Assembly (NCBI GenBank): GCA_963402885.1
Contig: OY727100.1
Span: 8,419,501-8,483,500 of the forward strand
DNA: 64,000 bases
Source: Antedon bifida
Taxonomy: Eukaryota > Echinodermata > Crinoidea > Comatulida > Antedonidae
Reading direction: 5' to 3'
Under the pieces are notes generated by a model. That model searched no databases. It was not told the DNA's origin and saw nothing but the letters and a program-made list of their open reading frames with translations. The translations under genes were made by a program, and so were the position numbers. Below are positions 8,001-51,498 of this stretch, piece after piece. How positions within the stretch are numbered: the first letter of the stretch is position 1; the number at the start of each line of letters is the position of its first letter.

Positions 8001-11000
8001 TAGAGGGTTCGCTCGCGCACCCTCTAGTGGGTGTACTCGAATGGTCCTCGAAAACATGACCAACGCCTCTGGAAATTGAAGCCCGGGTGACACCTATGCA
8101 TATGACTGATGAGTAATGTATGTTTATTTTGTGATGTTTCATGGTGGTCCATAAATTAGGTACGCCAAACATATCGCTTCCAGGGTAATATAGCAAATTA
8201 GAGTTTAAAAAATGTACGAATAGAGAACAATATAGGCTAATTATTATATTCGGTCTTCCGCCGAATGTGTGTGTGAGATTTGAACCTGTACTGAAAATAA
8301 GTTTGGTAAGATGCGAAATGTATACCAATTATGATTGATTACGTCCCCTGTCCGATTAATGATGTATGGACACTTGACAGCAATCGGTGGTTAGGAACGT
8401 AAGGGGAAAAGTTACTCAATAGATTTATTTATTTGTAAACAAAATGTACATTAATTCTCTCTGTAATGATGTAAAAACTTTGAACAATTGGTATTACAAC
8501 AATTGGTATTAATGCAAATAATATAATTGTAAAGAACAGTATACGTATAATAGACATATTTTATTATTATATATATTATCTGAACTTTACACACAGGAGG
8601 AAACCGTTAATAGGGGTCATCAATCACTGAAACAGTCTCTATAACGTGACCGTACCAAGAGACCAAAAGCATATATCAACGTGGGTGACAGTGAGCGGGC
8701 TTTAACATTTTTATCACAATATATCATGACAACAGCATCTTGTTAATTTTGGAACAAAATTATCAAATAACAACTTTCGTAGCCTACTTATATTTCGGTC
8801 GTAGTAGACACTTTATAAATATAAATAGAGAAAGCAACAGAAATAATCGATAAACAGTAAAGGTGTTTCCCTAGTAGGCCTGACCTCCTATGCTATTATG
8901 CTATTTATTAATCATTTTATCAAATTTAGGTGCGATTCAATGTTACTATAATAGTAACATTGAATCGCACCTAAATTTGATAAAATGATTAATAAATAGC
9001 ATAAATAATTAGTTAAATTACTAAAACAAATTGTATTTCACGTAAAGTAAAGGCCTTTATAATTGATATTTGAATATCTAAAACAAATAAATTGTAGTTC
9101 ACGATTCAGTTGAATCACTAAAATCACATTGTAGTTCACGTAAAATTAATAAAGGCCTTCAATAATAGTGAAATTACAAAAACCAATTTTAGTTCTCGAT
9201 CACTAAAATCACATTGTAGTTCACATAAAAGTAAAGGCCTTCAATAAAAGTTAAATTACTAAAACAAATTGTAGTTCACATAAAGTAAATGCCTTTAATC
9301 AATATAATTGATTAGTTAAATATCTAAAACAAATTAATTTCAGTTGAACCACTAAAATATTTTTTTATTTAATATTGAATGGCGCCACCAACGGCCATTT
9401 TGCCGGAAGTGACGGACCCGGAAGCCAGTTGAACAACAGCGCGAGTGTGTGAAAATAACCCTGTGATATCCACAAATTTCGATAGGTAACGCTAAATTTT
9501 GTCGTTGTAAAAGACAAAAGTGGAACAATAGCGTCGATGTGAAAACTAATGTTATCAAATCTATGTTTCGCGGTACATCTGAGATAGATTTGTACCGAAG
9601 TTTTTGCATTGTGCTCGCCTATGTCAGAATTAACCATAATTTATATATAGATGTGCATAAATTACCTCAACATTCTTTGCAGCAGGACTAGTACCCTTTT
9701 CACACCAAAAGCAAAACTCTGGAGACACTCCGGAGTTGATGTCCCAGTGTTTTGGTGTGAAAGGTAAAATCAAACAACTCTGGAGTTCAAAACACCAGGG
9801 TTGAACTATGGAACACCTCCTCTGCCTTCAGTTCACATTTATCATGCAGTACACACCAATCGTCATGCAGTACACACCAATCGTCATGCAGTACACACCA
9901 ATCGTCATGGAGTACACACCAAACACCATGCAGTACACACCAATCGTCATGCAGTACACACCAAACATCATGCAGTACACACCAAACATCATGCAGTACA
10001 CACCAATCGTCATGCAGTACACACCAATGGTCATGCAGTACACACCAATGGTCATGCAGTACACACCAATCGTCATGCAGTACACACCAATCGTCATGCA
10101 GTCAAATATTGCGTAATTTATACCGCCACCTATCGACAAAATCGAATATCACGTGACGTTTATTAGACGGTTGTAAAACTAAGACTATTTATTTCTTTAT
10201 CTCTTCTTCTTTTATGGAATTCAATAATTGCAATGGCCTCCTAGTCGCGCTTGTGTCTCGCATAATAAATTATTGTATATATAAAAAACAGAGCATTCAC
10301 AGAGATGTGTAGCGGTTAAAATAAGTCCAGTATGTCAAGCATAAAATAAATCTTAAAGTCGATGGCCTTAGTTTTACAACCGTCTAATAAACGTCACGTG
10401 ATATTCGATTTTGTCGATAGGTGGCGGTATAAATTACGCAATATTTGACTGCATGACGATTGGTGTGCACTGCATGACGATTTTTAAAAGTAAAGTTAAA
10501 AAGTATCTACAGGAACGTACACTTGCATTAGAAACTATTTAATAAGCGCTACTTCTATATTTGATAGTCTTATTGTTAGTTTTTTTATTAATTATTATGT
10601 TTCATTGTATGTCTTTTTTGCTGTTCTTTCAAAGGACCTCATTGGAAACAAGTCCGTAGAGGACTTTTATGAGTTATCCTTGGCATCCTTCTTGTTTTAT
10701 TCATGGTTTTTTATATATGCTATTTTTAATTATGTCTGTGATTTTTTTATGTACTGATGCCGAAATAAATCAAATCAAATCAGACCACCAACTGATTAAA
10801 AAAAAAATTGTTGGGAGCAGAAACAGGAACGTGTTCAATATAAAAATTATGTTTTTATATCTATTTTCAAATAAACAGTCGGACCGCTTTATGGAAATCC
10901 TTCCTTGTATGCTTGTATTACTTGACTATAAATTTAGTGTGGTGTGAAAACATTTCCAAATATAAGTTACCTGTTAAACCTTGTCCAACTGCTCTAAGAC

Positions 11001-11439: not shown

Positions 11440-11578
11440 TAAATACGATATTATACAAATAATGAATGTTTATGAGTTGGATGGTGAAAATATTTCATGA
11501 GTTGACAAATGTTAGGCCATTCAAAAAAGCATTGCTCCAACTTAGGACGCGGAGAACAGTTGTAGACGACACGCACAA
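11440..11578 (+). repeat. Host repeat interrupted by the Ty3/gypsy element (left part)
   Basis: This flank and 16216-16270 together resemble one continuous copy at 23690-24065, sharing blocks around ATATTTCATGAGTTG, GCTCCAA and GACGCGGA. The retroelement thus landed inside an older dispersed repeat, and the 23.7-24.1 kb copy shows how the site looks without it. Confidence 0.65.
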
Positions 11579-11753
11579 TGTCGTGTATTAAGACATGGGT
11601 GATTGGTCTACGCGCATTGATATTATGGGTAGAATAGTATAATAGGCTGTTGTTAATAAATGCCTCGGTCACTTGGAATCCACACCTGACTGAGTCGTAT
11701 CTATTATACCTGTGTACTGTTGTTAGTGTCTTTAACGTGTACGAAACATAACA
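11579..11753 (+). repeat. 5' LTR
   Basis: 175 bp, starts TGTCGTGTATT and ends CGAAACATAACA. It is identical to the 3' LTR except for one C/G difference. The sequence TTTGGCGACGAGGATGG follows directly and is where a tRNA primer-binding site would lie. A TATA-like TAGAATAGTATAATAGG region is a candidate promoter. Confidence 0.95.
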
Positions 11754-11766
11754 TTTGGCGACGAGG

Positions 11767-13140
11767 ATGGCCGTTAAAGACCATTATATGCCGATGTTTG
11801 AGCAGTATAATGAAGCCGAGAATTTTGACTGTTATTTGGAGCGGTTTGAAATTTATGTGGAGGCGATTGGACTAGGCCTACGTGGACAGCCGGATGCAGA
11901 TGATGCAGGTGGTACTGTTGGAGCTAGAGTGGTAGCCATTTTCCTGAACGCGATAGGTCGTAAGTACTACGGTATTTTGAGGGACTTGGTTAGCCCAAAG
12001 GCGCCCAAAGATATTCCATATGATGAATTAAAGTCTACACTTAAGAAACATTTTACTAAGCCGATAATTACCATTGCTGAAAGGCATAAGTTTATTCAGC
12101 GTAATCAACGTCCCGATGAAAAGACTTCTGAATACATAGTTGCTTTGAAACATTTAAGTTTGAATTGCAAGTTTGGCGAGAAGCTGGACGAGCAACTACG
12201 TGATAGGTTTATAAGCGGGATGAGGGACCAAAATACGTCATTGAAATTAATGGAAAAGGCAGGTGCGGCTGAGTTGAGTTTTAATGAAGCAGTAGAAGTT
12301 GCTTTAGCGAGAGAAAGTGCTAAGGATGAGTCCAAGTATCTGAGAGAGTCTGCTATAAATACAGAGGTGTATACAATTAGTGCATACTCTAGTGGTGGTA
12401 AACATGGAAGCGGCGAGCGTAGAAGTAATAATAACAATAAACATAAAAAGGGGAATAAAGAACGTAAGATGTGTAACCGGTGTGGAAGAAAATCACATGA
12501 TCAACAAAATTGTTGGTTTAAAGACAAGAAGTGTAACGTGTGTCAAAAAGTTGGACATATCAGTCGTGTGTGCTACAAAAGGTCACAAGGTGTATGTACG
12601 GTAGAGATGGATGACAGCGATAGTGATATTGAAACTACATTACCTTTGCCTATTTTTACAACAACTAAATCATCAGATGCTATTTGTGTTAATATGAATG
12701 TGGATGACCGGAACTTTCAGTTTGAATTGGACACTGGTTCTGCAGTAACTTTGATATCTGAACAGGCTTATAAAGAACATTTTAAGTATAAACGTTTGCA
12801 AGAGAGTTCTCGAACATTTACTAGTTTTACGGGGGAGATTGTAAAACCCCTTGGTAAAATCAGTGTTAAAGTGGTATATGAATCACAATGTCATTATTTA
12901 TCCATGTATGTTGTTGCTAATACTAAACATTCTCTTTTAGGGCGAGACTGGTTAAATGTTATTAAGTTAAATTGGCAAGAATGTTTTCACACTAATTATG
13001 TTAATAAATTGGAATGTAAGGATGCTCTTAAACAACTCTTGGATAAGCATGAGGGTCTGTTTAAAGGGGAACTGGGACTTTTAAAGCGTATTAAAGCTGA
13101 TGTTTTATTAGCAAAGCATACCGGGTTCCCTATGCCTTAA
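11767..13140 (+). CDS. gag and aspartic protease part of the gypsy polyprotein
   Basis: The first ATG after the LTR (11767) lies in the GACGAGGATGGCC context. About 457 residues: a helical capsid-like region (1-200), two CX2CX4HX4C zinc knuckles at about 236-249 and 256-269 for RNA packaging, and the protease active-site motif LDTGSAVTLIS near 320. The frame closes at 13140 because a short coding segment just before the RT is missing and the remaining bases shift frame at about 13123. Genuine Mag elements usually keep gag and pol in one frame, so this is damage rather than a regulated break. Confidence 0.85.
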   Translation: MAVKDHYMPMFEQYNEAENFDCYLERFEIYVEAIGLGLRGQPDADDAGGTVGARVVAIFLNAIGRKYYGILRDLVSPKAPKDIPYDELKSTLKKHFTKPIITIAERHKFIQRNQRPDEKTSEYIVALKHLSLNCKFGEKLDEQLRDRFISGMRDQNTSLKLMEKAGAAELSFNEAVEVALARESAKDESKYLRESAINTEVYTISAYSSGGKHGSGERRSNNNNKHKKGNKERKMCNRCGRKSHDQQNCWFKDKKCNVCQKVGHISRVCYKRSQGVCTVEMDDSDSDIETTLPLPIFTTTKSSDAICVNMNVDDRNFQFELDTGSAVTLISEQAYKEHFKYKRLQESSRTFTSFTGEIVKPLGKISVKVVYESQCHYLSMYVVANTKHSLLGRDWLNVIKLNWQECFHTNYVNKLECKDALKQLLDKHEGLFKGELGLLKRIKADVLLAKHTGFPMP

Positions 13141-14651
13141 GGTCTGACGTTGATAATGAGTTAGATAGATTGGTCAACATTGGGGTTCTGACACCAGTGA
13201 CGCATAGTCAGTGGGCCAGTGGTATAGTAACCGTTCGAAAAAAGGATGGGTCTGTTAGATTATGTGGAAATTATAAGCCAACAATTAATCCAGTGCTACA
13301 ATCTGTTGCCCCACCTAACATTAATGTTGACGACATTCTGTCTAATCTTGCGGGTGGTGAAACCTTTACCAAATTAGATCTGGCACAAGCCTACAATCAG
13401 ATGGAGTTGTCCGATGAGTCTAAAAAGGTACTCACAATTATTACTGAAAAGGGCTTGTTTCAGCAAAATCGATTGGTTTTTGGCATAACGTCCGCGCCAG
13501 CAATTTGGCAAAACGCAATGAATGTGATCTTGAAGGATCTCCCGGGGGTACAAGTGTACCTTGACGACATCTTAGTCACAGGGAAAGACGATCAAGAGCA
13601 CCTTAGTAATTTAGAGAGGGTCCTTGTCCGTTTGCAGGATTATGGATTGAGACTAAAACGGGAAAAGTGCGAATTTATGAAGCAGTCTGTTGAATATCTG
13701 GGACATTGTGTTGATAAACATGGTGTTCATAAATCCGTAGACAAAATTGATCATATTTTGCAAATGCCGTTGCCTTCCGACATTACTACTTTAAGATCGT
13801 ATCTGGGAATGGTGAATTATTACCGTTCATTTGTACCTCAATTAGCCACAATATTAATATTATCACCTTTAACTAATATGTTAGAAAAGGGTAAAGAATT
13901 TAAGTGGACAGAATTGGCTAGAAATGCATGGGTGAAATCAAAGGAAATGCTAAGACATTCGGGGTTTTTGGTTCACTATGATCCCAATTTGCCTTTAACA
14001 GTAGCTACGGATGCTTCAGGTGAGGGGGTAGGTGCTGTTTTATCCCACATTGTAAATGGGAAAGAAAGGCCTATTAAATTTGCATCTCGTGCATTAAATA
14101 AGACCGAAAGAAATTATCCGCAACTAGAAAGAGAAGCCTTGGCTATCGTGTATGCTTGCAAAAAGTTTTGTTCCTATATCTATGGCCGAAAGTTTATTTT
14201 GATAACTGACAATAAGCCCCTAACTACTATATTTGGTCCGAAGAAAGGGTTACCAGTTTTGGCTGCTGAGCGAATCCAGCGATGGGCTCTTTATTTGTCT
14301 GGGTTTGATTATAATATTAAATTTAGGAACAGTCAAGCGAATGCGAACGCGGATTGTTTATCCCGATTACCGGTTGAGGGTTCCCCACGTCATAGCGAAA
14401 TTTCGGTTGCGCATATTGGTTCTAGTAAGATTCTTCCGGTAACTAGCGCCGAAATAAGAAATAATACAAGTAAAGATGTAATATTATCTAGAGTAATGCG
14501 TTATCTTATGGATGGAAGTTGGCCCCAAAGCGATGAGAGTTTGAAACCTTATTTTAACAGACGAAACGAACTGACTATTGAAGGGGGTTCCACCAAAATT
14601 GCGACAACAGGTTTTAGAGGAATTGCATGTAGGCCATATTGGGGTTGTTAA
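13125..14651 (+). CDS. reverse transcriptase and RNase H part of the gypsy polyprotein
   Basis: This frame opens directly after the break at 13123-13125 and runs about 508 codons. It contains the RT palm blocks with KLDLAQAYNQ, FGITSAP and the catalytic YLDD (13557-13568), then RNase H with TDASGEGVGAVL and the later TDNKPL. A second break occurs near 14586, ahead of the integrase, after which the reading frame ends out of frame at 14651. Confidence 0.85.
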   Translation, partial: VPYALRSDVDNELDRLVNIGVLTPVTHSQWASGIVTVRKKDGSVRLCGNYKPTINPVLQSVAPPNINVDDILSNLAGGETFTKLDLAQAYNQMELSDESKKVLTIITEKGLFQQNRLVFGITSAPAIWQNAMNVILKDLPGVQVYLDDILVTGKDDQEHLSNLERVLVRLQDYGLRLKREKCEFMKQSVEYLGHCVDKHGVHKSVDKIDHILQMPLPSDITTLRSYLGMVNYYRSFVPQLATILILSPLTNMLEKGKEFKWTELARNAWVKSKEMLRHSGFLVHYDPNLPLTVATDASGEGVGAVLSHIVNGKERPIKFASRALNKTERNYPQLEREALAIVYACKKFCSYIYGRKFILITDNKPLTTIFGPKKGLPVLAAERIQRWALYLSGFDYNIKFRNSQANANADCLSRLPVEGSPRHSEISVAHIGSSKILPVTSAEIRNNTSKDVILSRVMRYLMDGSWPQSDESLKPYFNRRNELTIEGGSTKIATTGFRGIACRPYWGC

Positions 14652-15750
14652 AATGAAAGGGTTAGCGCGGTCTCATTTCTGGTGGCCGTTGTTAGATGCG
14701 CAAATTGAGGAAACTGCGAAAAAGTGTGACTCATGTCAGCGTATACAAAATAATCCTACCATCGCGCCTATGCATCCTTGGTTACCTGTTTCTAACCCTG
14801 GTGAACGTGTACATGTAGATTTCGCGGGTCCATTTGAGGGTCTTACATATCTTATTGTGGTGGACGCTTTTTCAAAATGGCCTGATGTTTTTATTATGCA
14901 ATCGACAACTTCACAGAAAACTATTGGGGTATTAAGAACTTTGTTTAGTAGAAATGGTTTGCCCCAAGTTCTAGTGTCTGATAATGGACCACAGTTTACG
15001 TCTGGGGAATTTAAGAGTTTTATGGCTATGAATGGTATTAGTCACAAATTATCTGCACCTTATCATCCTAGTACGAATGGACAAGCAGAGCGTTTTGTTC
15101 AATCGTTAAAACAAGGATTAAGGGCTGCTCGAAATGATTTAGGTGATCCGCAAACTAAATTAGACAGGTTTTTGCTTTCTTATAGAAATGCAGAACACTC
15201 TTTGACTAAAGAGACGCCTGCAAAGTTGTTTTTGAACCGTTCTATAAGAACTAGATTAGATATCCTTCGACCCAATATTAATGATTCGGTGAGAAATAGT
15301 TTACACAAAGCCATGCATAAACGAGATCGAAAGTTGCGTTTATACGAAATAAACGATTTGGTTTATGTGCGAAATTATATAGAACAAACTAAGTGGGTCC
15401 CTGGTGTTGTTGTAAACCAGGAGGGTCCTCTAAACTATAAAATTGATGTTGGAAATAAAATGGTTTGGAAAAGACATGTTGATCAAATTAAAGATAGAGG
15501 TGTAAATGTAGATTTTGAAAATAAAGAAGGGGAGGATATGGATACGGAATATGTAGATAAGAGAGTAGAAGAAATTTTGAGTAGAAAGATTAAAGAAAAT
15601 TGTATAAGTGATAATGTCAAAAGTAATGTTACTGAACAGACTAAAGAAAATTGTGTAAATGATAATGTCAAAAGTAATGTTGCTACTGAACCAAGTGTGT
15701 TAAGAAGGTCAACCAGAGTGCGCAAAGCGCCAGATCGGTTAAAATATTGA
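14578..15750 (+). CDS. integrase part of the gypsy polyprotein
   Basis: Coding content begins at about 14587. It holds the HHCC zinc-binding region (ELHVGHIG ... CDSCQ), then the DDE catalytic core with HVDFAGPF (first Asp), SDNGPQF (second Asp) and GQAERFVQSL (Glu). The C-terminal tail is lysine-rich and has a 16-residue internal duplication (KENCISDNVKSNV / KENCVNDNVKSNV) before RRSTRVRKAPDRLKY, a chromatin- or DNA-binding type basic tail common in Ty3/gypsy integrases. Stop at 15750. Confidence 0.85.
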   Translation: MKGVPPKLRQQVLEELHVGHIGVVKMKGLARSHFWWPLLDAQIEETAKKCDSCQRIQNNPTIAPMHPWLPVSNPGERVHVDFAGPFEGLTYLIVVDAFSKWPDVFIMQSTTSQKTIGVLRTLFSRNGLPQVLVSDNGPQFTSGEFKSFMAMNGISHKLSAPYHPSTNGQAERFVQSLKQGLRAARNDLGDPQTKLDRFLLSYRNAEHSLTKETPAKLFLNRSIRTRLDILRPNINDSVRNSLHKAMHKRDRKLRLYEINDLVYVRNYIEQTKWVPGVVVNQEGPLNYKIDVGNKMVWKRHVDQIKDRGVNVDFENKEGEDMDTEYVDKRVEEILSRKIKENCISDNVKSNVTEQTKENCVNDNVKSNVATEPSVLRRSTRVRKAPDRLKY

Positions 15751-16027
15751 ATGATAATGTTTTTGTAGTAGTGTTTGTATAAGCAGCATGATTGACTTTA
15801 CTTTGTCATTTTAAAACATAACTCTATAGACAGTCATCTTTGCAGTATTTACTGTAGTATTCTGATCGGTTGTACATATGTAATAACTAACTTTCATTGG
15901 TCTATTCGACTATCCAGTGTATAAGTTCTGCGTAAATATTTTGGTGTATTGTTAGTTTTAATAAAATGTATTGAAAATCTGTAAAAAAAAAAAAAATATA
16001 TAAAATGTGAAAATAGGTTTCCAAATT

Positions 16028-16040
16028 AAAAAGGGAGAAA
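16028..16040 (+). other. Polypurine tract of the gypsy element
   Basis: AAAAAGGGAGAAA lies immediately 5' of the 3' LTR, the position used to prime plus-strand DNA in LTR retroelements. Confidence 0.85.
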
Positions 16041-16215
16041 TGTCGTGTATTAAGACATGGGTGATTGGTCTACGGGCATTGATATTATGGGTAGAATAGT
16101 ATAATAGGCTGTTGTTAATAAATGCCTCGGTCACTTGGAATCCACACCTGACTGAGTCGTATCTATTATACCTGTGTACTGTTGTTAGTGTCTTTAACGT
16201 GTACGAAACATAACA
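16041..16215 (+). repeat. 3' LTR
   Basis: 175 bp, same ends as the 5' LTR, one substitution at 16075. It is followed by CACAA (16216-16220), the second copy of the target duplication. Confidence 0.95.
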
Positions 16216-16396
16216 CACAAGTTGTTTTTGAACACATATCAGTCAACAATGCCGCATGGCAAACATTCTCAAAATGAGCTAGTGCTGAATGACATGTAAT
16301 ACGTAATCAACCAATCAAATTGCACTGCAAAACAATCAGGTGTACTATAATGTTTAATAATAATATTGAGTAAAATCTCATCTGTTAAAAACCCAC

Positions 16397-16875: not shown

Positions 16876-18278
16876 TATCTTTCCATCCAAAAGCCCCATT
16901 AGGATAACGGAATGGTATTGGAATGAGCATGTCTGTTAGTATGTCTTTAGTATGTCTTTGACAGGCTCACAATCATCATGATCAGAGACTGAACACAGCT
17001 GACACTTCATATCTATGTATAGTTCACCATTTTCTAAACCAGCCGAATATCTGTTAAAATTAAGCATAAAAATAAATAAATGTGGTTCCTGGTCATAACA
17101 AAAGTTTTATGTGAAGATAATTATTTACTTACTGTAGGTTACAAAAAATGTAAATCCATTGTTAAAATTTGAATAACCATTGTTAGAAATAGCAACTAAC
17201 CTGTATCATCATACCGTAGTTAAATATAATGTCAACAACAGCCTAACATGTGAGCGTTTGCTCACTCACTGTGTAACAAAAAAGAACATGCAAAACAAAA
17301 TTGCAGTATTCCATAATGACAAGGCATGCTCGAGTGTGCTACATCACATTTATTTTATATCATATGACCCCACAACGTTCAATCAAATAAAAATAACCTA
17401 CCTAGGCATTTTATAAATAAAAGTGTCCCAATAATAAGTTCCATTCCAAATTGTTTCCATCCACTTTCTACGATAACTATTTCTTTTGAAATTTCTGTTT
17501 AACATTAAAGAGTGTTTTACTTATTTTTTTAAAGTACTATTATGCATATTACTGTTGATATAATCATAGAATCAATGTGACATCTTTATCTGAATATAAA
17601 TATAGCAAAACAATTTTATTCTGATACAACTGAAAGAAATGATAAAACTGGAAGAAAAGAGAGGCATCAATAGATTGAATTCTTGGTAGAAAAAAAAGTA
17701 GTAAACAATTAATTAGTTTGTTTCAAATTTGCTTACCAAAAGGAAATAATATAATATTAGCTATGATGTATTCTCCCAGCCCAATGCAAATGCATTTCTT
17801 ATTGTTTTAATTGTCATATTATCTAAAAACTAAGGTGTTAGAATGGATAAAAATAAGTAAAATTAAGGAAAAAAATATCAATAAACTTACTGGGATCTGG
17901 CTGACTAAATCTGGCCAATAGCTCTTCCCGACTACCCCCTGTAGGTAAGCCTCTTTCTTGTAGAAGTGTTCTCAGATAATCATTAGTTAAGTGATTTGGT
18001 AGAAAGTTCTTAAGTCCATCAATTTCAGACTGGGTTATAAAAATAAGCACATATGCATTTACATTGGTAAAGTAATCTTAAATTTGATATTTTTAAATTA
18101 TAAACATCAATAACACCTTTTCACTTTATATATAAAACTATTATTTCTTGTTTACCTTAAAGTCAATCAACGTATCAATAACTTTCTGTTTAAGTTTGTT
18201 TCTTTCAAAAGCTCAATTGCTTCCATAACTGAGCACATTGGAATATCAGAAAAGCTGTAGGAATTGAATGCTGTAGAC
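16876..18278 (-). CDS. LLTP-like gene, exons 26-28 (plus small exon), SAP-like motif and two frame lesions
   Basis: Exon 26 (18156-18278) reads FSDIPMCSVMEAIELLKE and then continues only in another frame as RNKLKQKVIDTLIDFK, a frameshift near 18205. Exon 27 (17891-18029) encodes NDYLRTLLQERGLPTGGSRE and then ELLARF, which matches the SAP-type helix-hinge-helix (L-x-x-L-L-x-x-x-G-L-x-x-x-G-x-x-x-E-L-x-x-R). A further exon, 17402-17494, extends the frame (KEIVIVESGWKQFGMELIIG). Exon 28 (16876-17050) contains a four-Cys patch (DMKCQLCSVSDHDDC) and an exact 11-bp tandem duplication at 16937-16947/16948-16958 that shifts frame, after which PIPFRYPNGAFGWKD resumes. Confidence 0.6.
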
Positions 18279-18479: not shown

Positions 18480-19669
18480 CATAATTGGGTCGTCTGATAC
18501 CCATTGCTGTGGAATTATGTTGTCAATTGTTAAAATAGTGTCAGATAATGATCCACCAGAGATTTCAATTTCAATTTTTTCTTCACTTAACAGCGTAAGG
18601 AAGCCAGAAAATGGAGCAACAATCTATAAAAAAAACTAGCATTACATTAATAGCAATTGCAGTCATCCGTCAGGATGAATTTTAATATTAGATTTTAAAA
18701 TATCAAGTGGAAGGTTAATTAATGATCTTTTGTGGTGGTATAGTCGACAACCGTTATTTTTTCTTTGTTATTTGTTCATTTAAAAAATACCATACAATAA
18801 CATTTTGCTTATCATAATAAAAAGCATTATTAAAAAGTATTATTAATTAAATATTTATCCTCACATAAGTTTACTATTGATTTAAAAAGAATTTATTAAA
18901 ATAGTAACATTATTTTCAATTTTACTTGTTCACTCTTTCCAATTATTAGGTCGATTCCATAGTCGCTGAATCTATCAGAGTTTGTGGTGGGATAAAAGCC
19001 ATCATCTGGACAAATATCAGATCCTTCACGGAATACTCGTGGAAACTTTGCATCAAATCGAACACCAAATATCTCTTCGATTTCAAATCTTCCTTTGTCA
19101 ATGCTGTTATAAAAATGTTGTACTGTTTATTAAACATTATTTAAAAAGTATGGAATCACTAACAAGAACAATCATGTTGGCCCAGTGGTGGATTCAGGAT
19201 CTTATTTGTGGGGTGGCTATGGTCGTTAGATGAGGAGCAATGTTTTTTTAGTCAAAGGAGGTTATTATCATTTACGCAACAGTACTGACTAGAGGGCTGC
19301 CGGCACAGGATCCATTTCTACCTCCACCCTTGGCTCCAACAATGTGGCCATGTAATGATAAATACCCAACTTGTGCCAACAGTCACAAAGAACTGCAAAA
19401 TGCACATAACCACCAATTAATTTTTGTATTTTACAGTACAATTTATATATGTACAGCATACATTATTCCAATGATATTTAATATGTTAGAAAGTCTTACA
19501 CTCTTTGTAAGATGTTTACAACTGTTTCGTTTAGGTGTTCCATCCGAGATGTAACATGACTCAGAGCTTCCTTGAAAGGATTTGAAATGTCTGTGACTTT
19601 TGTAAGTGTTTCATTGATCTGGTGTAATGCATCTCTTACAAGATTCAAGATCTTTCGTTGCTGAACATT
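18480..19669 (-). CDS. LLTP-like gene, exons 23-25: helical spacer and LECT2/M23-like domain
   Basis: Exons 19500-19669, 18926-19103 and 18480-18623, phases 2, 0, 0. Exon 23 is helical with two N-E-T glycosylation sequons (NETLTK, NETVVN). Exons 24-25 encode a compact domain: Cys-Pro then DRFSDYGIDLIIG, followed across the splice by IVAPFSGFLTLL and IEIEISGG, ending LTIDNI. The order resembles the LECT2/M23 peptidase-like core, where G-[VI]-D is followed by a short gap, then APF-[ST]-G and a paired strand. Zinc-ligand histidines expected of active M23 peptidases are not seen (the usual HxG(V/I)D His is replaced by DYGID), so a non-catalytic binding fold is more likely. Domain call is by pattern only. 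Confidence 0.6.
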
Positions 19670-34619: not shown

Positions 34620-36026
34620 TTACAGAGGGAAGATTAGAGTATTGTCAATTATGATTCCAAGGTGTTTATGAGAAGTAACAGATTGAATTGGAGAATCATT
34701 AAGAGTAAGGGTGATAGAGTTAGATTTAAGTTTTTGAGAAGAGCCAATGAGCATAGATTTAGTTTTTGAGATATTGAGTGTTAGTCTGTTAGATTTTAGC
34801 CAGGTAGAGAGATGAATTAGAGCATTATTAAGATTCTGTTCAATAAGTTTAGAAGAGGAGTTAGAATAGTAGATGATGGTATCGTCAGCATACATGTCAA
34901 CATGTAGATTAGAGTTATGAGAGATTAGAGAAGATGAAAGGTCGTTAATGTAGATGGAAAAGAGAAGAGGACCAAGAGTGGAGCCTTGAGGAAGAAAACC
35001 AGAGGAAGAAAGAGTTTTTTCAAAAAGAACTTGTTGAGAGCGATTAGAAAGATAAGATCGGAGCCAAGAGATAGTTGAAGGAGAAAATCCATAGTAGGGT
35101 AATTTAGCAAGAAGAATATTATGGTCAATAGTGTCGAAAGCTTTTTTGAGATCGATAAAGATAGTGCCAGTAAGTTTCTTATTATTGATATTGTGAAGCC
35201 AGTTATCATATGTGTTGGTAAGAGCAGTAAGGGTAGAATGTTGGGGACGAAATCCAGATTGAGAAGTAGATATTAAGTTATTAGAGTCAAGGTAAGAATA
35301 GATTTGTTGGGAAATAGATTTTTCAATAATTTTGGAGCAAAGGGGAAGGATAGAGATAGGCCGGTAGTTGTTAAGGTCATTTCTTTTGCCTGATTTAAAG
35401 ATAGGAATAACTTTAGATGTTTTCCAGGCAGAGGGAAAGCAATTAGAATTGATAGAAAGATTAAAGATAAAGGTAAGATGAGGAGCAATAATAGCAGAAG
35501 CAGCTTTAAGAAATTTACCATCAATTAAATCAGGTCCGGTAGAAGTATAGGGATTGATGGATGTTAATTCAGTTTGGACAAAGTCTTCATCGATGCAGCT
35601 CAGAGAAAAGAAAGAGTTGCAAAAAGACAGATAAGAAGACGGGTCAGGACAATTAGAGGCGTCAATAAGAGAAGAAAGCTTAACAGCATTGTTAGTGAAG
35701 AAAGAGTTGAAAGAGTCGGCAATAATTAAATGATCAGAGATGTCTGAACCATTAATTGAAAAAGACGGAGGGAAGGTATTAGATTTAGAAGGAAGAAGAT
35801 CTTTCAGGCCATTCCAGATTTTTTTAGTATTACCTTTGTTGTTATTTAAGAAAGACTTATAGTAAATTGCTTTAGCATCTCGACATAGTTTAGTTACAGA
35901 ATTTCTAATTTTACGGTAGTTTTTAAAGTCAATATCGTTTTTGGTTTTATAAGCTTTGACTTTTAAAGCATCTCTTTGGTGAAACATATCAAAAATGTCA
36001 TGTCTATTATTGAGCCATTTCGGCAA
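34620..36026 (-). CDS. LINE copy 2 reverse transcriptase ORF
   Basis: 468 residues. Residues 1-150 are a basic linker (CRDAKAIYYKSFLNNNKGNT). The RT domain follows with the fingers motif NDLNNYRPISILPLCSKIIE, palm motifs including FIDLKKAFDTIDH, the PQGSTLGPLLF loop and the catalytic YADD. Compared with copy 1 it lacks four residues before PQGS and loses its C-terminal part through a small deletion, after which 34285-34521 continues in another frame. Confidence 0.9.
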   Translation of the reverse strand: MPKWLNNRHDIFDMFHQRDALKVKAYKTKNDIDFKNYRKIRNSVTKLCRDAKAIYYKSFLNNNKGNTKKIWNGLKDLLPSKSNTFPPSFSINGSDISDHLIIADSFNSFFTNNAVKLSSLIDASNCPDPSSYLSFCNSFFSLSCIDEDFVQTELTSINPYTSTGPDLIDGKFLKAASAIIAPHLTFIFNLSINSNCFPSAWKTSKVIPIFKSGKRNDLNNYRPISILPLCSKIIEKSISQQIYSYLDSNNLISTSQSGFRPQHSTLTALTNTYDNWLHNINNKKLTGTIFIDLKKAFDTIDHNILLAKLPYYGFSPSTISWLRSYLSNRSQQVLFEKTLSSSGFLPQGSTLGPLLFSIYINDLSSSLISHNSNLHVDMYADDTIIYYSNSSSKLIEQNLNNALIHLSTWLKSNRLTLNISKTKSMLIGSSQKLKSNSITLTLNDSPIQSVTSHKHLGIIIDNTLIFPL

Positions 36027-36296
36027 TGTCCTTTTAAAACGTCTAGTGACATAAGGGGCAAACTTGTCGCAAATATGCGAGAATTTGGAGGTCCAAAACG
36101 TGAGTGCAGCATCGACATTCGTTAAGTTGTAGAGATCTTGCCAATTCTGGTGTTGAAGCTCATTTAAAAAATTAATTTCGTTAAAAACGTTTTGGTGTAG
36201 TGATTCATCTTTGGTGTTTTTGATGATAAGCAGGTGTATACATATTCGTGATCACTAAAGCCACAAGGAAAGACAGAAGTGTGAAGATGTAAATAC

Positions 36297-37172
36297 TCAC
36301 AGTTTGTTATAAATAAGATCAATTGTTGATTCAGAAGTTTCAGTGATCCTTGTAGGAGTTAAAATTAACTGTTTAAGACCAAAAATATCCATAATATCAT
36401 TAAGATGGTTATGGTTAGTTGATCGAGTTTGAGTGTTAATGTTAAAGTCACCAATTGCAATTAAATTACTTGATTTGTCTGACCAGAGATGAAGACAGGA
36501 CTCTAGGTCCGTAAAAAACTCAACTGGAGCACTAGGAGGTCTGTAGATAGTGGTTAAGAGAATGGAACTGCCAGATGGAGGTTTGATTAATATAGCAACT
36601 GACTCGATGCTAGCATTTTCAGGTTGACTGATCTCTTCAAAAACAATTGAATCTAGAAGATACATTGCCACACCACCACCGTGTCTTGTTCGGTCTCGCC
36701 TGATCATTGTATAGCCAGGTATACTGATTTCTGTTGAATGAATGGCTGAACATAGCTTGGTCTCAGAGAGACATAATACATGTAGAAGATTGTTCTGCAA
36801 TAGATTTAAAAGCTCATGATGCTTACTAGTAAGACTGTTAACATTAACATAAGCTATTTTCAAACCTGAATGAGCTTTGGTATCCGAAATCGTAATAGTA
36901 GAATGTTCAGTTTCATCTGGTCCAGGATTGTATTCAACATCTCCAGCAGCAAGAAGTAGAATGTTAAGACAAGCGGTATGATTAGAGTAGTATGCAGTAG
37001 GCGATTTTCCAAACTTTAGCTTGAATTTAGGCAGTGAATGTTTGTTCACAGAGTCGTTTAAAATCAGTTGAAAGTCAAACTGACATGAAGAAACATTAGC
37101 TAGAACAATTAGTCCTACAGCAAAAGCCATGTAGGCTTGGGTGGCAAACTTCCTGGTTGGCTTTGTCATCAT
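36297..37172 (-). CDS. LINE copy 2 N-terminal ORF: hydrophobic leader, 2A motif, endonuclease
   Basis: 291 residues. Residues 1-30 include a signal-like hydrophobic run (AYMAFAVGLIVLANVSSC). Residues 72-85 form a 2A translational-skipping motif. From residue 95 the apurinic-type endonuclease begins (IAYVNVNSLTSKH, LSETKL, RRDRTRHGGGVAMYL, IGDFNI, with S-T-ID near the end). The ORF runs out before the RT, with the connecting 270 bases frameshifted. In related elements endonuclease and RT are one polyprotein. Confidence 0.85.
   Translation of the reverse strand: MMTKPTRKFATQAYMAFAVGLIVLANVSSCQFDFQLILNDSVNKHSLPKFKLKFGKSPTAYYSNHTACLNILLLAAGDVEYNPGPDETEHSTITISDTKAHSGLKIAYVNVNSLTSKHHELLNLLQNNLLHVLCLSETKLCSAIHSTEISIPGYTMIRRDRTRHGGGVAMYLLDSIVFEEISQPENASIESVAILIKPPSGSSILLTTIYRPPSAPVEFFTDLESCLHLWSDKSSNLIAIGDFNINTQTRSTNHNHLNDIMDIFGLKQLILTPTRITETSESTIDLIYNKL
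36918..36959 (-). other. 2A-type ribosome-skipping motif
   Basis: Encodes LLLAAGDVEYNPGP, matching the D-V/I-E-x-N-P-G-P consensus with the preceding leucine-rich helix. In the elements where it has been tested, such a motif makes the ribosome skip the Gly-Pro bond and release the upstream peptide. 2A motifs in APE-type LINEs of sea urchin are known, which supports both the assignment and an echinoderm-like host. Confidence 0.85.
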
Positions 37173-38204
37173 TGTTCAGTAAAACAAAGAAAGTACTGGA
37201 CAATAGGCCTAGTAATCTAGGCAGGATGTTCCAAGTTTAATCTTGATAAATAACTATTGTTCAGGAAGAAACAGGCTTGAAAGCCAGCAGTCTGGTAGCT
37301 TTATTGACCGAGCGAAGAAACACTTCAGGCTAGGAAGAACTTACAGAAAAATGCAAAAAGCAGCCAAAGTTGTCTTGAAATGATAACAAGCCTTGATGTC
37401 ATATAATCCAGAAAGAATAAGCTCCAATTAGATATGCAATATAATCAGTACAAAAGACAGGTTCATGAAATATTTATTAGAAAGACAAGCAGCGAAAATA
37501 TAGGTGTACACTCATTGATGTACACATGAAGTGAATGTTTACAGTGACAAAGTGTCTATTTTGTGTCATACAGTACACATTATTTTTACCGAATACACTG
37601 TATATTATTATATACCAGTACAGTGTAGACGAAGAAATTGTGAGACACATTTTTTATTTTAATTTTTAACATGATGATGTCATCAAAATGAAACATGAAG
37701 GTAATAATTTTAGAGCATAATCTACCATAAATAATTGACCGTTATTATTAGGCCATAAGCAGTAGCTCAAAAGATGCCTAGAACATGGATTTCGTTCCCA
37801 CCTCTTGGATCTACATTTTGAAAGTTGATATTGTGAAATGAATATGTTACCCATACTATATCAAAACTTCTCCATGAAATACCTGTACACTTTTGAGGAA
37901 TGGCCTCTCAAAGGTACCCCACTACTGCAAAAAAGGCACTTTTTGAGGTCTGGAGGTACTTTTATGGGCCAATATCCTTAAAAGTATTTGTCCAAATGCA
38001 ATTGTCTTATCCAAAATTTTAAATTTTAAAAATAAGTATTTTGTATGTGAGAAAAACTAAAAAATTACAATTATTTAGTTGTAAATGCACTTTTCAAGAT
38101 TTTTAAGACACAATATCTTCGTAACTAATTGACATACCCTATTTAAATTTTTTGCCCAACTATTTGAGAGGGTTGTTAACCAACATTTAAAGTTTTAACT
38201 TGTC

Positions 38205-44995: not shown

Positions 44996-47291
44996 TAAGT
45001 CGGACACTAAGTATTCAGGACATTTCCCCCCTCCCCCCACCCTTGAGGGGGAAAACTTTGTTTAATGACACCCCTAGATGGCCGGAAATGGCACTCTCGC
45101 ACATAACATTCATGATAAATGGCACCTCTAATTGGTCGGAAAAGACACTCTCATGCAGCATGCTACCAATGAGCAAAACGATCGTATTCGCACTTCTTCC
45201 TCCTCCTCACACACGTGGACTATTTAACCGCCGATTGTTTGATCATTCACTCGGTATTTTGTTCTACGTTCAAGTTCAATGTGAACGTAGGCCTACGCCT
45301 AGGGGAATCCCCGAAAAAAGCACACTTTGAGTGAAAGAAGGCAAATTCAATGCTTATTATAGCTCTACTTGTATTTTCACAGCAATTTGAGGAAATTAAT
45401 TACTAATCAACGTAAATAGGTGGTATGGTATTGATACAGTTCAGTACGTATCGGCTGGTAGCCCTAGAAAAAAATAATCGGATGCTATAATAATATAAAC
45501 TACAGTATATGATACCATAGATATTATAGGGTAATATATTAATATTCACTATAATCCTCTATGATGATGATACACTATACTTCGTAGCCACACATAAATA
45601 ACCGCAGCGTTCCATTTTTTATGTACGTCGGAAGGCTATACCGTAAATCTTTCTAATAGTAACCAACCTTATAAGTCAATCTATAATAATAATTCACTAC
45701 TCTAATAGTAACCCATGGGTTAATATTAGAATCACAAAAACTATTGACAAAATTACATTATGAATTGAAGACTGGTCATTTATGATGCAGCCGTATTTTG
45801 AAAATAAGGAGATAATGCATGTTGATCTCAGGAGTGGGGGAGGATTGAGTGTTTTTGAGTTTATAAAATAAAGTTAGAGTTCAAACAAATTTGTTTATTC
45901 GTACTGTTTTATTATTTTGCTATGATTTGCTGAATGAAATAGTTAAAGTGAGTTACTATTTTCAAGTGCCTAATTTAGGATTAGTAATAGTAACCCACTA
46001 CTAAAAAACAGTAAAAAAGAATAATAACCCAGGGTTACAATTAGAAGATTTATGGTATACTTTATGCATGCTGACTGGCCGTGATCTAAACAATATAGGT
46101 ACGCGGTTGTCTGGCGGTGTCCTTTGTACGAATCGTTCGTGCACGTACCAGCTCACTGTATGAGTGCGATACACGCGTCAATATCATGTTACATCCAGGG
46201 ATTTCAGGTGAAAATTCATTTGCAACTCTTGGAAATTTACAGACACGTATCGCTCGACGTACGCTCATACAGCGAAGAATGTATCAAGTTATTCACGAAC
46301 GAGTTTACGAATTTTTCAATTTACGAATAACCTTTTGTACTGTGTGGGGCACTTATTTGGTGGATTATCAGAGATGAGGGTGAGGTATTGGGCATGTCGG
46401 GATGGGGGTTTGCAGTCGGTTAAGGGTGGTTCGCTGTAAAGGGGGGGGGGGGGGGGGGGGGTTCGCCCGAACTATAAAAACCCCCCTGGCTACGGGCCTG
46501 TATAGACTATTCCCAGATAATGTACTTAGCACGACAAGTATATTAGTGTCTACCCAGGTTTTGATGCAAACTCTTGAATTTAACAGACACTAGAAGCACT
46601 GAGATGTTACGGTTCAGTGTAGGCTACAGCAACCATTGTTGTCATTAAACTCATTGATTTTTCAGCCTACCATTACTGTTCACCAGAAGAAACAACAACT
46701 GGTAAAGTATAAATCAGTACATTATAGAAAACATTGACATACGTCCAGTATCCTAAAGTTTACAGAATCTAATATAGTACGTTAATGCAACTGGGTTTTA
46801 GAGTTATACGAAATACTGTTGATTCCTGAATATTATAATGTATTGAAGAAAATGGAATTTTAATTTATAAGGCTGTATTTCCAATAAACTGCAATAGGTC
46901 AGTGATAATATGGGTATAACCATGGAGGTATTATACCTCCATGGTATAACTATAATATTATTATATCTGTCTTTTAAAGACTTGAAACAAATTGTAAAGT
47001 TGGCCCCTGTGTTTTATAAAAGGCAACAAGATTATCTAAAATTTCGAAAGAGCAGTAGGACTACCTTGGTGTAGCCTATTGGTCGACCTCAGTAGTCCCC
47101 GTGGCGTCGTGGACAGACGAATGACCGCCGTTTGGTGGTAGCACCCAACATGTTTGGGGAGATACAATTCCACTGTGCCTACGTTACTGTATAAATACGA
47201 ATTCATTCCAAATAACCTTTTTCATTATAGTTTTGATGTTGCTGTCATCTTAGATATTAAACATCACTCTAATAATCCAAGAATAGAAAAA
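44996..47291. other. Intergenic region, no gene seen
   Basis: Overlapping short ORFs on both strands (45043-45330, 46086-46377, 46402-46593) have no recognisable domains or supporting splice context. A run of about 20 G lies at 46441-46460, and an imperfect palindrome TATAACCATGGAGGTA with its complement at 46914-46950. This is the stretch between the divergently arranged LLTP-like and NLR genes. Confidence 0.5.
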
Positions 47292-47826
47292 ATGGCAGAT
47301 TCTGCAACAAAAGAAAGGTTAAATATATTGACAGCTAATCTCAGTGACTGCTACGACGGCGACATCATGCGCCTTCAGTTAAAATGCATCCTATTTGATC
47401 ACTTAGCTAAGGGTGCTATTACAGATCCAGATCTTATCGGACATGATTTATTCAATAAACTGGAAAAAAAAGGTTCCATCTCACCTACTAATATTAACTT
47501 ACTATTAGAGATTACGGAACTATTTGGAAATAAGAAGGCTAAAGATCTTGTTAAAAGGTATATGAATGACAATGACACTCAGAACACAGTTGCACCGAAG
47601 TTGTCATCTTATCGCAAGCGACTGTTTAAAGCAATGGAAAATGTCAGTCGAGGTGAATTGCGAAAAGTTATTGCTTGCTACAAAATAGGCCGATATAACT
47701 ATACAAATATTTGAGACGTAGTGCTTCGTCTGGAGATTGCCAAACAGCTCGAAGATGAACCAGAGAAAATACAAAGGTTTGCAGACCGTCTCAGTCAAAC
47801 TGCAAAAGACATTCTACTTGGTAATG
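47292..47826 (+). CDS. NLR pseudogene exon A: death-effector-like module 1
   Basis: Start at 47292 (AAAAATGGC context). Residues 8-85 resemble a death-effector domain (LTANLSDCYDGDIMRLQL, then DLFNKLEKKGSISPTNINLL), with the hydrophobic spacing of helices 1-5. A second helical block begins SSYRKRLFKAMENVSRGELR and would continue through a Trp that is TGA here (47712-47714) to VLRLEIAKQLEDEPEKIQRF. The open continuation after the stop to a donor at 47827 shows the stop is a recent point change. Confidence 0.7.
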
Positions 47827-48113
47827 GTATGTATTTTATACTACTATCTCTACAAAATATATCACAAAATAAACGATACGATGGGTCGATGGGTGACAGT
47901 AGGCCTAACTACGCTATATTTTGTCACATTCGTTGATTAATCAATAGTCTAAACAAAGTTCAACGTTTGTTTGGTTATGTATCTTACGATATACAACACA
48001 AATCCAAAGTTTAACATAGCATGGACGAATTAAACTTATTCCTCCATGATTATTTTAACTCAATTGGTATAGAAGTGAAATTAATGTACAGTAATGTAAT
48101 TTACGCTTTGCAG

Positions 48114-48640
48114 ATGATATTAATGGGAAGTTTCAAAGCTTGATAGCTGATCTCAGTAAATGCTATGTTGACGGTGAAAAGCCTAGATGCCTATGGTTAC
48201 GATTCTGCCTCTTTGAACAATTAGGTAGAAGTCACTTTGACAATACAGAAATCAGTGGTGATGACTTATTCAATGATCTTAAAAGCCAAGGTTTAATCTC
48301 ACCTACTAAAGTTAACCTTTTGTTAGAGATTACGAAACTTACCGATCTTAGGGGTGCTGAAAAGTTGGTAAGAGGGTATAAGATGGACAATAATGTTCAG
48401 TATACTAAAACTAAGTTTTCATCGTTTCGTAAGCGACTGTTTAAAGCCATGGTACATATTCACAAAGGAGCTCTCATAAAACTTATTGATAAGTACGAAC
48501 TAAGCGAATATGATTTTAAAAATGTTTGGGACCTAGTGCTTCGACTTGACTTGACTCACGGCTAACAGATAATCCAGGGCAAATAAAAATGTTTGCGGAT
48601 TGTCTTGGAAAAATTGCAAAAGGAAAAATATTTGATGATG
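48114..48640 (+). CDS. NLR pseudogene exon B: death-effector-like module 2 (paralogue of exon A)
   Basis: Acceptor at 48113, phase 1. Same layout as exon A: LIADLSKCYVDGEKPRCLWL, DLFNDLKSQGLISPTKVNLL, SSFRKRLFKAM, then VWDLVLRLD with the Trp intact. After LTHG the frame is shifted near 48562, and the expected block (TDNPGQIKMFADCLGKIAKG) continues in another frame to the donor at 48641. Exons A and B clearly arose by tandem exon duplication. Confidence 0.7.
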
Positions 48641-49436
48641 GTATGTATAATTATTATTATTATTAGTATATATTATTATTATTATAATTAATCATGAGTC
48701 AAAGTTCAAAGCTTAAAATTAAAATTATTTTACTGAAATCAATTAATTGTGATTGTATATTACAATATGAAATACATAAAAGTTAAATAAAAAGATTAAA
48801 ACATTAAGATAGAAAAAAGTTTCACTAAAACAGTTTTTAAATTAATATTTTGTATCCACCTTCTATCTCTTTGAATTGAAATGTGTGAAGTGAACGAAAT
48901 GGGCCAGGGGATAGAGGGCTGCCAATGGACTCTTGGAAATTTCTAGTCAGGTTACGATTACATAATATGGTAAATTTTATGAGACTAAATAATTATGTTT
49001 GGAGATTAGACATTTATTTTGTTTTGTCCGTTTTAAACTCACATTCGATTATTTTTATTTAAAATAGGTATTAATAAACGTAAATTAATCCACTGGAGAT
49101 CAAAAATTAATCGGCCGATTATACGAACACTAAATGCTGTTACTTTGAACTTTTACAATATGAAAGGGACGGGTAACTGTAGTAAATACCATTCAATAAA
49201 ATCAAATAGACGTGTGATCAAGAATTATTAGTAGTAGGCCCAAGTAACTGTGAAACGGTATGCTTCATGAAAAATTGTACTTAGGCCTATAACATAAAGA
49301 CAAATTGAAAATGTTCTCGATGATAAGTGACGGCTATATCGTTGAGTTGTTGAAGTAGACATTGCTATGGTGTGGTTAAGCAACACGGGTTTATGGTTTA
49401 CAATTTATATATTTACTCTAATTTTGTAACCTACAG

Positions 49437-49472
49437 TGTTGATTCAAGATAACTGGATATTTAAAGTTAAAG
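49437..49472 (+). CDS. Possible small linker exon of the NLR pseudogene
   Basis: A 36-bp segment between CTACAG and GTAAGT, phase 1 in and out, encoding VLIQDNWIFKVK. It fits the phase chain between exon B and the NACHT exon, but it is too short to be certain. Confidence 0.35.
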
Positions 49473-49999
49473 GTAAGTGTTTTAAAACATTTTTATAACA
49501 ATGGGAAGTGTTTCCTAGAGACATAGCCGTTATGGCTGGTCGCTAAAAATAGTCTCCCCCTTTAAAAAAAGATTGATTAAAGTTATTTCCAAAACGTTTC
49601 TGAAAATTAATTCACATTACCAATAGGAAAAGGGCAAACATTAATTTACGACAAACGAAGGTGATCTTAAACCGCAAAACAAAATCGTATGTTGGTTGGG
49701 AACTGTATTCTTTAGTTTGGAAGGTACCGTACTTTTGTTTGTTTGCAACCTTAAATAAAATAGTTGTAATTAATAAAATTAGGTCATGAAATTAAAATGT
49801 TTTGTTTGCTTTTTTATAGTAGGCATAGCTCTGGTCTTCACGACAGTCGCATTCATATATTAATAGTGCACTACATTTCCAACCATGAATTAAGACATGG
49901 TAAGTAGGCCCGATGTTAATTTTATTGTTTCTAATGTATATTATATTTATTTTAATAGATGGTAGGCACAGTTTATAATCTTTCCATTCTTGATTTCAG

Positions 50000-51498
50000 A
50001 TGAGATTATTCGCAACTATCTAACAGCACACCAGAAACACAAATTAAAAAACCACAAAGTAAGACCACCAACGTGGAACGTAAACTATACGGAGATCAGT
50101 TATAATATTTCGCAGCTGTTCACCAATCCAATACTACATACCACTATAGAAAAAATTGAAACGTATACATTCAAAGATTTACTGGGCATTATAAAATCCA
50201 GAGACTCATGTAAAGTATTGATGATCGGAAATGGGGGAATTGGTAAGACAGCATTACTTCGATATATATCTTATAACTGGGCAACCGATTCTGATGATAC
50301 GTTTGCTGGTAAAATATTATTTTTTGTAAACGCCAGAGACAAACAATTACAGATATAATTGTAAATACTACTGTTAAGCTGAATACATTTTGTGAAAAAA
50401 CGGGTATCTATATAGGGGATGAAACTATAAGACGTTTTATCGAAGACACGCCAAAGAATTAGTTGTTCTAGTAGATGGATTCGATGAGTTAAACTCTGGG
50501 GTTGACATTACAATAATATCAAAAAGTGAAGAACTGGAAAACAGCACAGTTATTCTTACTTCACGACCGGGATTTACTGCACATACATATTATGACGTAC
50601 ATGTAAAAGTATAAGGATTCGCTTCAGAAAGTATAAAGCATTATATTACCAGGTATTTCAAATTTATTGATAAGCCTGATCTGGGTCAGTCATTGATCAA
50701 AACATTTAAACTTGATTCTCATGATAAACGAGTTTGGGGTGGTGATCACAAAAACATATTTGAACTGTTTTCATCACCATTTTTGTTACTTAAAATGTGT
50801 ACTTTATGGCAATACAAGCCAGTAATTCCAAAAGATTTGAAACAATATTTAAAAGAAATGTTTCGGTCTGTAATAAATCAGTCTATTAACAGAAGTGATA
50901 AATCTACTACAAAACCGATATCAACATTTGACCAAATCCCAACTGACTACGAAAATGCAATTTTAATACTAGGAAACATTAGTTACATTAATTTACAGAA
51001 AAATGTACTTAATTTTGATGACACACTATTTAAAGAACTAGGAAGAGATGAAACTGTAGTTGACTTATCACTGAAAATAAGATTTATTTACAAAGAAAAT
51101 CTTATTATTCCAGATAGTCTTGTGGATACTTACCGATTTCCACATAAGCTATTGTCAGAGGCATTAGCCGGGTTTTACTTGTCTAACAAAATTGAGACTT
51201 TAGATTCTGAGGAATGCGAGAAAATCAGGACAAACGAGTATTTACACATGACAAGAGTTGTCACTATCAGTTTTTTAGGTCCGAATGCTACAAATTCATG
51301 AAACCCTGGTTGGTAAATAGGGCCTCAAATTATTACTCAATTTCAAAATATTTTAAATATGTGGATGAAAAATACGAAAAAGAAGTTCTGAAATCATTGG
51401 ACGAACCAATATCTTCAGAAATGAAAAAATATTTTGCTTATTTAAGTAATTCCTTTACAATAGTTCTTAGAAGGGACAATTTGCACTTAATCGAGTGA
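50000..51498 (+). CDS. NLR pseudogene NACHT exon
   Basis: Walker A GNGGIGKTALLRYISYNW at 50227 onward binds the nucleotide. Walker B LVVLVDGFDEL (50459-50491) is in a different frame because of shifts near 50345 and 50455. The sensor-1 block ILTSRPGF follows, then TAA at 50612-50614 before GFASESIKHYI. The winged-helix region (50693-51301) contains SSPFLLLKMCTLW and ends with the FPHKLLSEALAGFYLS motif typical of the NACHT-associated helical domain. A last shift near 51290 leads to a helical tail ending with TGA at 51496-51498, exactly where the tandem duplication begins. Confidence 0.75.

Follow-up and report, generated by a model that had tools for sequence, protein, structure and literature searches.

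The question raised by this locus is whether an LLTP-type gene carries within it a domain related to the M23 peptidases and to LECT2, and whether that domain still belongs to an intact protein. The window, by which we mean the whole stretch of DNA analysed, spans 64 kb (C13:8419501-8483500), and the genome searched was the 315.6-Mb assembly of 27 contigs to which it belongs. We put at about 0.7 the probability of the following reading, which is built on sequence comparison: the window holds a broken gene copy, and its unbroken relatives would encode a Vitellogenin_N carrier with a degenerate, non-cleaving, partner-binding M23/LECT2-like module.

The segment that drew attention to the locus lies on the minus strand. 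The initial annotation had placed DYGIDLIIG and IVAPFSGFL on either side of a splice, and this was confirmed: exon 23 (19103-18926) contains SDYGIDLIIG and would form the start of the domain, and exon 24 (18623-18480) contains IVAPFSGFL and the strands that follow it, and would form the middle. Exon 23 runs from phase 1 to phase 0 between tttataacag and gtaaaatt, and exon 24 from phase 0 to phase 0 between ttttttatag and gtatgtat; the splice sites are fair and the phases compatible. The span 18480-19103 corresponds exactly to these two exons and a 302-bp intron. On the minus strand the junction reads ...SDYGIDLIIGKSEQ/IVAPFSGFL..., and the full translation of the joined exons is IDKGRFEIEEIFGVRFDAKFPRVFREGSDICPDDGFYPTTNSDRFSDYGIDLIIGKSEQ/IVAPFSGFLTLLSEEKIEIEISGGSLSDTILTIDNIIPQQWVSDDPIM. 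Exons 23 and 24 score 16.1 and 11.6 in their coding frames and below zero in the two remaining frames of each, scores that are partly circular, since 19 exon pieces of the same gene, exons 23-24 among them, served to train the codon table.

To what extent do these two exons by themselves resemble M23 or LECT2? A Pfam scan of exons 23-24 returned no family at E<=10, PF01551 included, and searches of NCBIfam and PHROGs gave 0 families each; human LECT2, the positive control of the Pfam scan, matched PF01551 at 3.1e-8. We also used a profile of 11 sequences, namely LECT2 and ten bacterial or viral M23 sequences (10 of 16 viral and bacterial loci, near-duplicates having been dropped); the M23 alignment held nine of these ten loci, the one without its N-terminal part being omitted. 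With this profile the joined exons ranked first among 3,587 sequences (584 window ORFs, 3,000 shuffles, one reversal and two query forms), yet with just 8.5 bits. A second set comprised 10,005 sequences; there the window domain came sixth, after the paralogues and a single one of the 10,000 shuffles (9.9 bits for this best shuffle versus 9.2 bits), and with LECT2 removed from the profile it came seventh. BLASTP against human LECT2 gave 22.7 bits and an E value of 6e-4 for the single pair, and two of 5,000 shuffles scored at least as high as the window in a Smith-Waterman comparison. When single bacterial or viral M23 sequences were compared with the window, the best two scores were matched by 10 and 12 of 1,000 shuffles and the other eight by more. 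An AF2 model of exon 24 alone (48 aa) has three strands with a pLDDT of 67, and a fold search with it found no match at E<=0.001. Prokaryotic relatives of the window domain were also sought: 100 stretches fit a pattern and none encodes a relative. Since the motif was picked from 64 kb, we regard the window fragment by itself as suggestive of an M23/LECT2 relationship and not as proof.

Further evidence came from the rest of the genome. Exons 23-24 gave six matches there, which represent three copies of the gene: that of the window, one elsewhere on C13 (C13:8616558-8617112, about 178 kb away on the opposite strand) and one on C16 (C16:2783083-2782016). Exon 23 of the window is 96.6% identical to the C13 copy and 79.3% to the C16 copy, and exon 24 is 89.6% and 72.3% identical, respectively. 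The window gene was represented by 39 exon pieces, two exons being entered in two alternative readings, and these are matched in the same order in both paralogues (tblastn, E<=0.01), 39 of 39 in C13 and 37 of 39 in C16. C16 gave no match to one reading of exon 8 or to exon 33, and a diverged C16 exon sits where exon 33 is expected. Splicing of 33 exons (1-29 plus 20b, 24b, 24c and 26b) gives stop-free reading frames of 1,524 codons in C13 and 1,523 in C16, where exon length, and not a GT, defined the ends of exons 7 and 29. In C13 the exon junctions are phase-compatible from the signal-peptide-like exon through the M23-like domain and onward. A separate transcript for exons 23-24, an explanation that we considered, is ruled against by these phases and by both paralogues; as far as sequence can tell, the domain exons belong to one transcription unit with the exons upstream, as had been presumed.

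Both paralogues have two exons between exons 24 and 25 that are missing from the window copy. The lost exon 24b contains VYKGDIIGLASKSNCQPFNYIHVAMKK...IDPSPFL in both copies, and in C13 it reads VYKGDIIGLASKSNCQPFNYIHVAMKKHHDGQTGYIDPSPFLEKVKMKCPKF. Judged by its layout, V..GD.IG ... HxH ... DP..yL, exon 24b is the predicted second half of the M23/LECT2 fold. The motif call is settled because both paralogues continue with the half of the fold that the window lacks; the domain of the broken copy becomes recognizable only once the paralogues supply this other half. A third exon assigned to the domain in the initial annotation (18278-18156) proved not to be part of it: it is the inside of the later exon 25, with a 1-bp deletion, to which the initial 7 bases of exon 24b have become joined.

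With both halves in hand, the match to M23/LECT2 extends over the whole domain. An alignment of the C13 and C16 copies compared with the LECT2 and M23 alignment gave a probability of 95.5% in hhalign over 105 columns, with an E value of 1.5e-8 that refers to one comparison. The hhalign score was 52.1, versus 23.8 for the best of 300 column shuffles, and without LECT2 in the profile it was 48.7, versus 22.0 in shuffles. Our own M23/LECT2 HMM gave 31.9 and 26.8 bits for the two copies, the best of 10,000 shuffles reaching 9.9. PF01551 is the top Pfam match in C13 and C16 (E values of 0.0045 and 0.056, covering profile positions 4-91 and 4-90 of 96), with scores of 17.6 and 14.1 bits that lie below the curated cut-off of 28.7. 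On these comparisons the domain of the intact copies is a complete but degenerate M23/LECT2-like fold; in view of its active site, described below, we class it neither as an M23 peptidase nor as LECT2. The proposed presence of such a domain inside an LLTP-type gene is thus borne out by the whole-domain match of the intact copies together with their Vitellogenin_N region, and the profile comparison that had been suggested is positive for the intact domain but not for the window exons taken alone. A free M23 gene in the same genome was considered as a near source of the domain and rejected; PF01551 had no matches at E<=10 when exons were searched singly, and the control matched in 10 of 14 genomes.

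The M23 peptidases are defined by the motifs H(x)nD and HxH, and the account of the family in PMC9662197 ties activity to both. In all three copies the place of H(x)nD is taken by D-Y-G-[IV]-D, that is, D-x3-D. The place of HxH is taken by Y-I-H in C13 and C16, and this part is missing from the window copy. The histidine that lies about 30 residues ahead of HxH has no counterpart in the intact copies. Two of the three zinc-ligand positions are kept in the intact copies, the third being Asp. The earlier suggestion that the zinc histidine is lacking therefore stands for the first histidine, which is Asp in all three copies, but not for the second histidine of HxH, which survives in the intact ones. 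The M23-like fold is probably degenerate and non-catalytic, and given the loss of the first zinc histidine from all three copies, a binding role, as previously proposed, is a better guess than a peptidase role. Between C13 and C16 the dN/dS ratio is 0.207 over the domain exons (172 codons), which corresponds to purifying selection, and 0.235 over exons 1-29. The purifying selection on the domain exons therefore suggests that the module has been retained for a role independent of the peptidase residues.

Two other readings of the domain need to be weighed. The domain could have a different β-rich fold that resembles M23/LECT2 in short motifs alone, and several observations point that way: PF01551 stays below its cut-off, and the hhalign alignment is poor in mid-domain, with gaps across the strands that separate APFSG from KGD. 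A phmmer search of the PDB with the whole domain recovered no LECT2 or M23 chain; its best matches were to designed Pizza propellers, at 9.7e-5 when the repeats were summed and with no single stretch passing by itself, and to HIV-2 protease, at 0.32. Set against this, the two halves align in the right order across 105 columns and far above shuffles, also when LECT2 is left out, and the first half suggested the family before the second half had been found, so that we give a different fold very little credence. It is somewhat easier to imagine, though still improbable, that the domain of the intact copies retains metal binding or acts as an atypical hydrolase in which Asp replaces the first histidine. 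In C13 and C16, H(x)3D retains its Asp and HxH its second His, and the Asp at the third ligand position could itself be a ligand. Neither the first His of HxH nor the other active-site His ahead of it is present, however, and the dependence of M23 activity on both motifs, as given in the family account cited above (PMC9662197), argues against this reading. A degenerate M23/LECT2-like fold that does not cleave is the reading that we prefer.

The broken state of the window copy emerges from its exon map. The gene lies on the minus strand, starts at 43252 and can be traced, past an LTR element, to 1062. Exons 1-4 (43252-43091, 42859-42766, 42495-42459 and 42236-42104) encode a signal-peptide-like start, its hydrophobic stretch MGPLLCQRFLYFVLIITLTDA in exon 1 having been read by eye, and the first part of Vitellogenin_N, which continues in exon 5 (33732-33562); exons 1-5 joined match PF01347 at 9.7e-8 with 31.5 bits, above the cut-off of 24. 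Exon 6 (33182-33097) has lost its splice donor, reading GACCGTAGTAAAC where C13 reads GACCATAG up to the exon end and GTACAAC after it. Alignment to C13 reveals a 14-bp deletion in exon 8 (about 32550-32451) and an 11-bp deletion in exon 11 (31534-31370). Exon 14 (26784-26573) belongs to the Vitellogenin_N region as well, matching PF01347 positions 464-525 at 8.3e-5 when joined to exons 11-13, with 21.8 bits, under the cut-off of 24. In-frame TGAs occur in exon 15 (25885-25776) and exon 19 (23621-23475). Exon 16 (25557-25340) contains a furin-like site, SRGKRSAR, identified by eye and common to all three copies. The donor of exon 17 is GC at window position 24827 and at C13:8614102, and GT in C16. 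Exons 20-22 (22756-19500), with compatible phases, encode a helical segment ahead of the domain.

Beyond the domain exons, a deletion of about 1.04 kb takes out the sequence between the beginning of exon 24b and the inside of exon 25, and with it the second half of the domain. Exon 26 (18029-17891) encodes a SAP domain (PF02037, 3.2e-7, 30.3 bits, cut-off 23.9), and its C16 form scores 16.9 bits, under that cut-off. Of exon 26b, 207 bp long in C13 and C16, a remnant is left at 17787-17737, where the last 51 bp or so alone align to the C13 exon. Exon 28 (17050-16873) contains a frame-breaking 11-bp tandem duplication (16929-16959), and exon 29 follows at 16624-16397. Exons 32-35 (5191-2633), which comprise a conserved region and repeat-type exons, are collinear with C13 8623241-8625321. 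LINE sequence at 2632-1114, with a reverse transcriptase ORF at 1497-2693, then replaces about 4.9 kb of the gene, its flanks aligning to C13 8625321 and 8630231, and a remnant of a later exon (LTPEEWEGR...) at 1113-1062 is 96.2% identical to C13 8630231-8630282.

In comparison with C13, the window copy thus has two in-frame stops, indels that break the frame at four places, an exon without its donor, the deletion of about 1 kb, an exon of which most is gone and the LINE replacement. It looks like a pseudogene that is no longer able to make this protein. We considered whether the copy might instead be functional, with the stops and frame breaks reflecting assembly errors or allelic differences. 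Its dN/dS ratio against C13 is still 0.285 over 1,308 codons, and base errors in the assembly would also fit the overlapping pol frames of the young LTR element in one of its introns (LTRs 99.4% identical, 177 bp). Such errors cannot yield the 1.04-kb deletion, the loss of most of exon 26b or a LINE in place of some 4.9 kb, and both stops alter codons on which the two paralogues agree; a functional window copy is in our opinion highly improbable. The breakage of what we take to be a pseudogene seems young, because dN/dS against C13 is still 0.285. Recoding or selenocysteine insertion at the in-frame TGAs was rejected: the two confirmed sites, in exons 15 and 19, are CGA and GGA, respectively, in both paralogues, and two more TGAs in 18278-18156 are apparent, arising from a wrong-frame reading of the fusion exon. 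As a candidate for a new architecture, the window locus retains the motif in an LLTP-type gene, but it is a broken copy, and the whole module is found only in C13 and C16.

Vitellogenin_N regions belong to lipid carriers. In the C13 copy this region scores 48.3 bits (7.8e-13; cut-off 24), and in having an N-terminal Vitellogenin_N (LPD_N) above the Pfam cut-off the gene agrees with the known LLTPs (MTP, vitellogenin and apoB/apolipophorin). The order in the unbroken copies is Vitellogenin_N, furin-like site, long helical segment, M23/LECT2-like domain, SAP-like domain and a long tail with PAN and repeats. The PAN domain is in a C13 exon at 8625685-8625957 (PF00024, 2.7e-8, 33.9 bits, cut-off 21.4), and the repeats that follow it in the intact copies, with the pattern D.esGi..Y.lgiG, matched no Pfam family in the two pieces scanned. 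In PMC10799875, LLTPs are described with few accessory domains, namely LPD_N, DUF1943, DUF1081 and VWD, and vitellogenin is recognized by LPD_N, DUF1943 and VWD together. Unlike these proteins, the present gene has M23/LECT2-like, SAP and PAN domains, and DUF1943, DUF1081 and VWD had no match in the pieces scanned, which cover part of the gene tail. Other Vitellogenin_N matches in the same genome number 11 in five places (L017-L024), all on C11 and apart from the C13/C16 family. The downstream tails of the two intact copies (C13:8625016-8640000 and C16:2756700-2771400) show similarity, scored as conservation, even outside likely exons, which may reflect gene conversion or exchange more recent than in the gene body.

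Comparison with other proteins containing an M23 fold places the module among degenerate members. Human LECT2 (PDB entries 5b0h and 9non), the sole mammalian M23 member so far according to PMC9662197, shares the fold, the stretch G.Y...S.R..(x)GxD...(V)APF(S/T)G and a degenerate active site. It is, however, a separate small protein of 133 residues that keeps H(x)3D and HxH, whereas here D-x3-D and YxH occur within a giant protein. The M23 peptidases LytM and lysostaphin share the whole-length profile match and differ in the catalytic motifs, which are absent here. EnvC and NlpD, degenerate M23 folds that act by binding partners in the description given in PMC9662197, offer a parallel for the proposed mode of action, but they are bacterial cell-division proteins and have no LLTP context. 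In the open-licence literature we found no LLTP described as having an M23 or LECT2 domain, in agreement with the initial annotation; automatic annotations of this combination may exist.

By analogy with EnvC and NlpD, the M23-like module would cleave nothing and would bind a partner, which might be a receptor, a glycan or a peptidoglycan fragment. The N-terminal part would carry lipid, like that of other LLTPs, and the protein would be a secreted or matrix lipid carrier. A bolder and rather doubtful extension is that, in an animal lineage, an LLTP came to be joined to a LECT2/M23 pseudoenzyme as well as to SAP, PAN and repeat modules, giving a giant recognition lipoprotein in which the M23-like fold attaches to fragments of bacterial wall or to an immune receptor and the LLTP part carries lipid. 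A conserved LECT2-like pseudoenzyme within an LLTP would couple lipid transport with a chemotaxin fold, and the intact copies provide a definite protein for testing.

Several other elements were noted in the window. Within an intron of the broken gene, at 11450-16240 (about 11.4-16.2 kb), lies a plus-strand Ty3/gypsy-type LTR element; its LTR pieces are 99.4% identical over 177 bp, and gag/pol extend over overlapping ORFs in different frames. The LINE copies at 34623-37175 and 1114-2632 are related and have reverse transcriptase ORFs. Exons or ORFs at 47142-51498 on the plus strand include a DED-like piece (PF01335, 8.7e-5, below cut-off) and a NACHT-like piece (PF05729, 1.2e-5, just below cut-off); this region may be an NLR-like gene, perhaps broken, because its ORFs shift frame. 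Tandem arrays are found at 9842-10102 (21-bp unit, 12.4 copies) and, with a related 52-bp unit (TTGGTTATCCGCACTTGGCGG...), at 52575-52836 and 54828-55131. C-type lectin-like exons lie at 61801-62701 on the plus strand; the first piece had no match, and the second matches Lectin_C (PF00059) at 4.2e-5, above cut-off.
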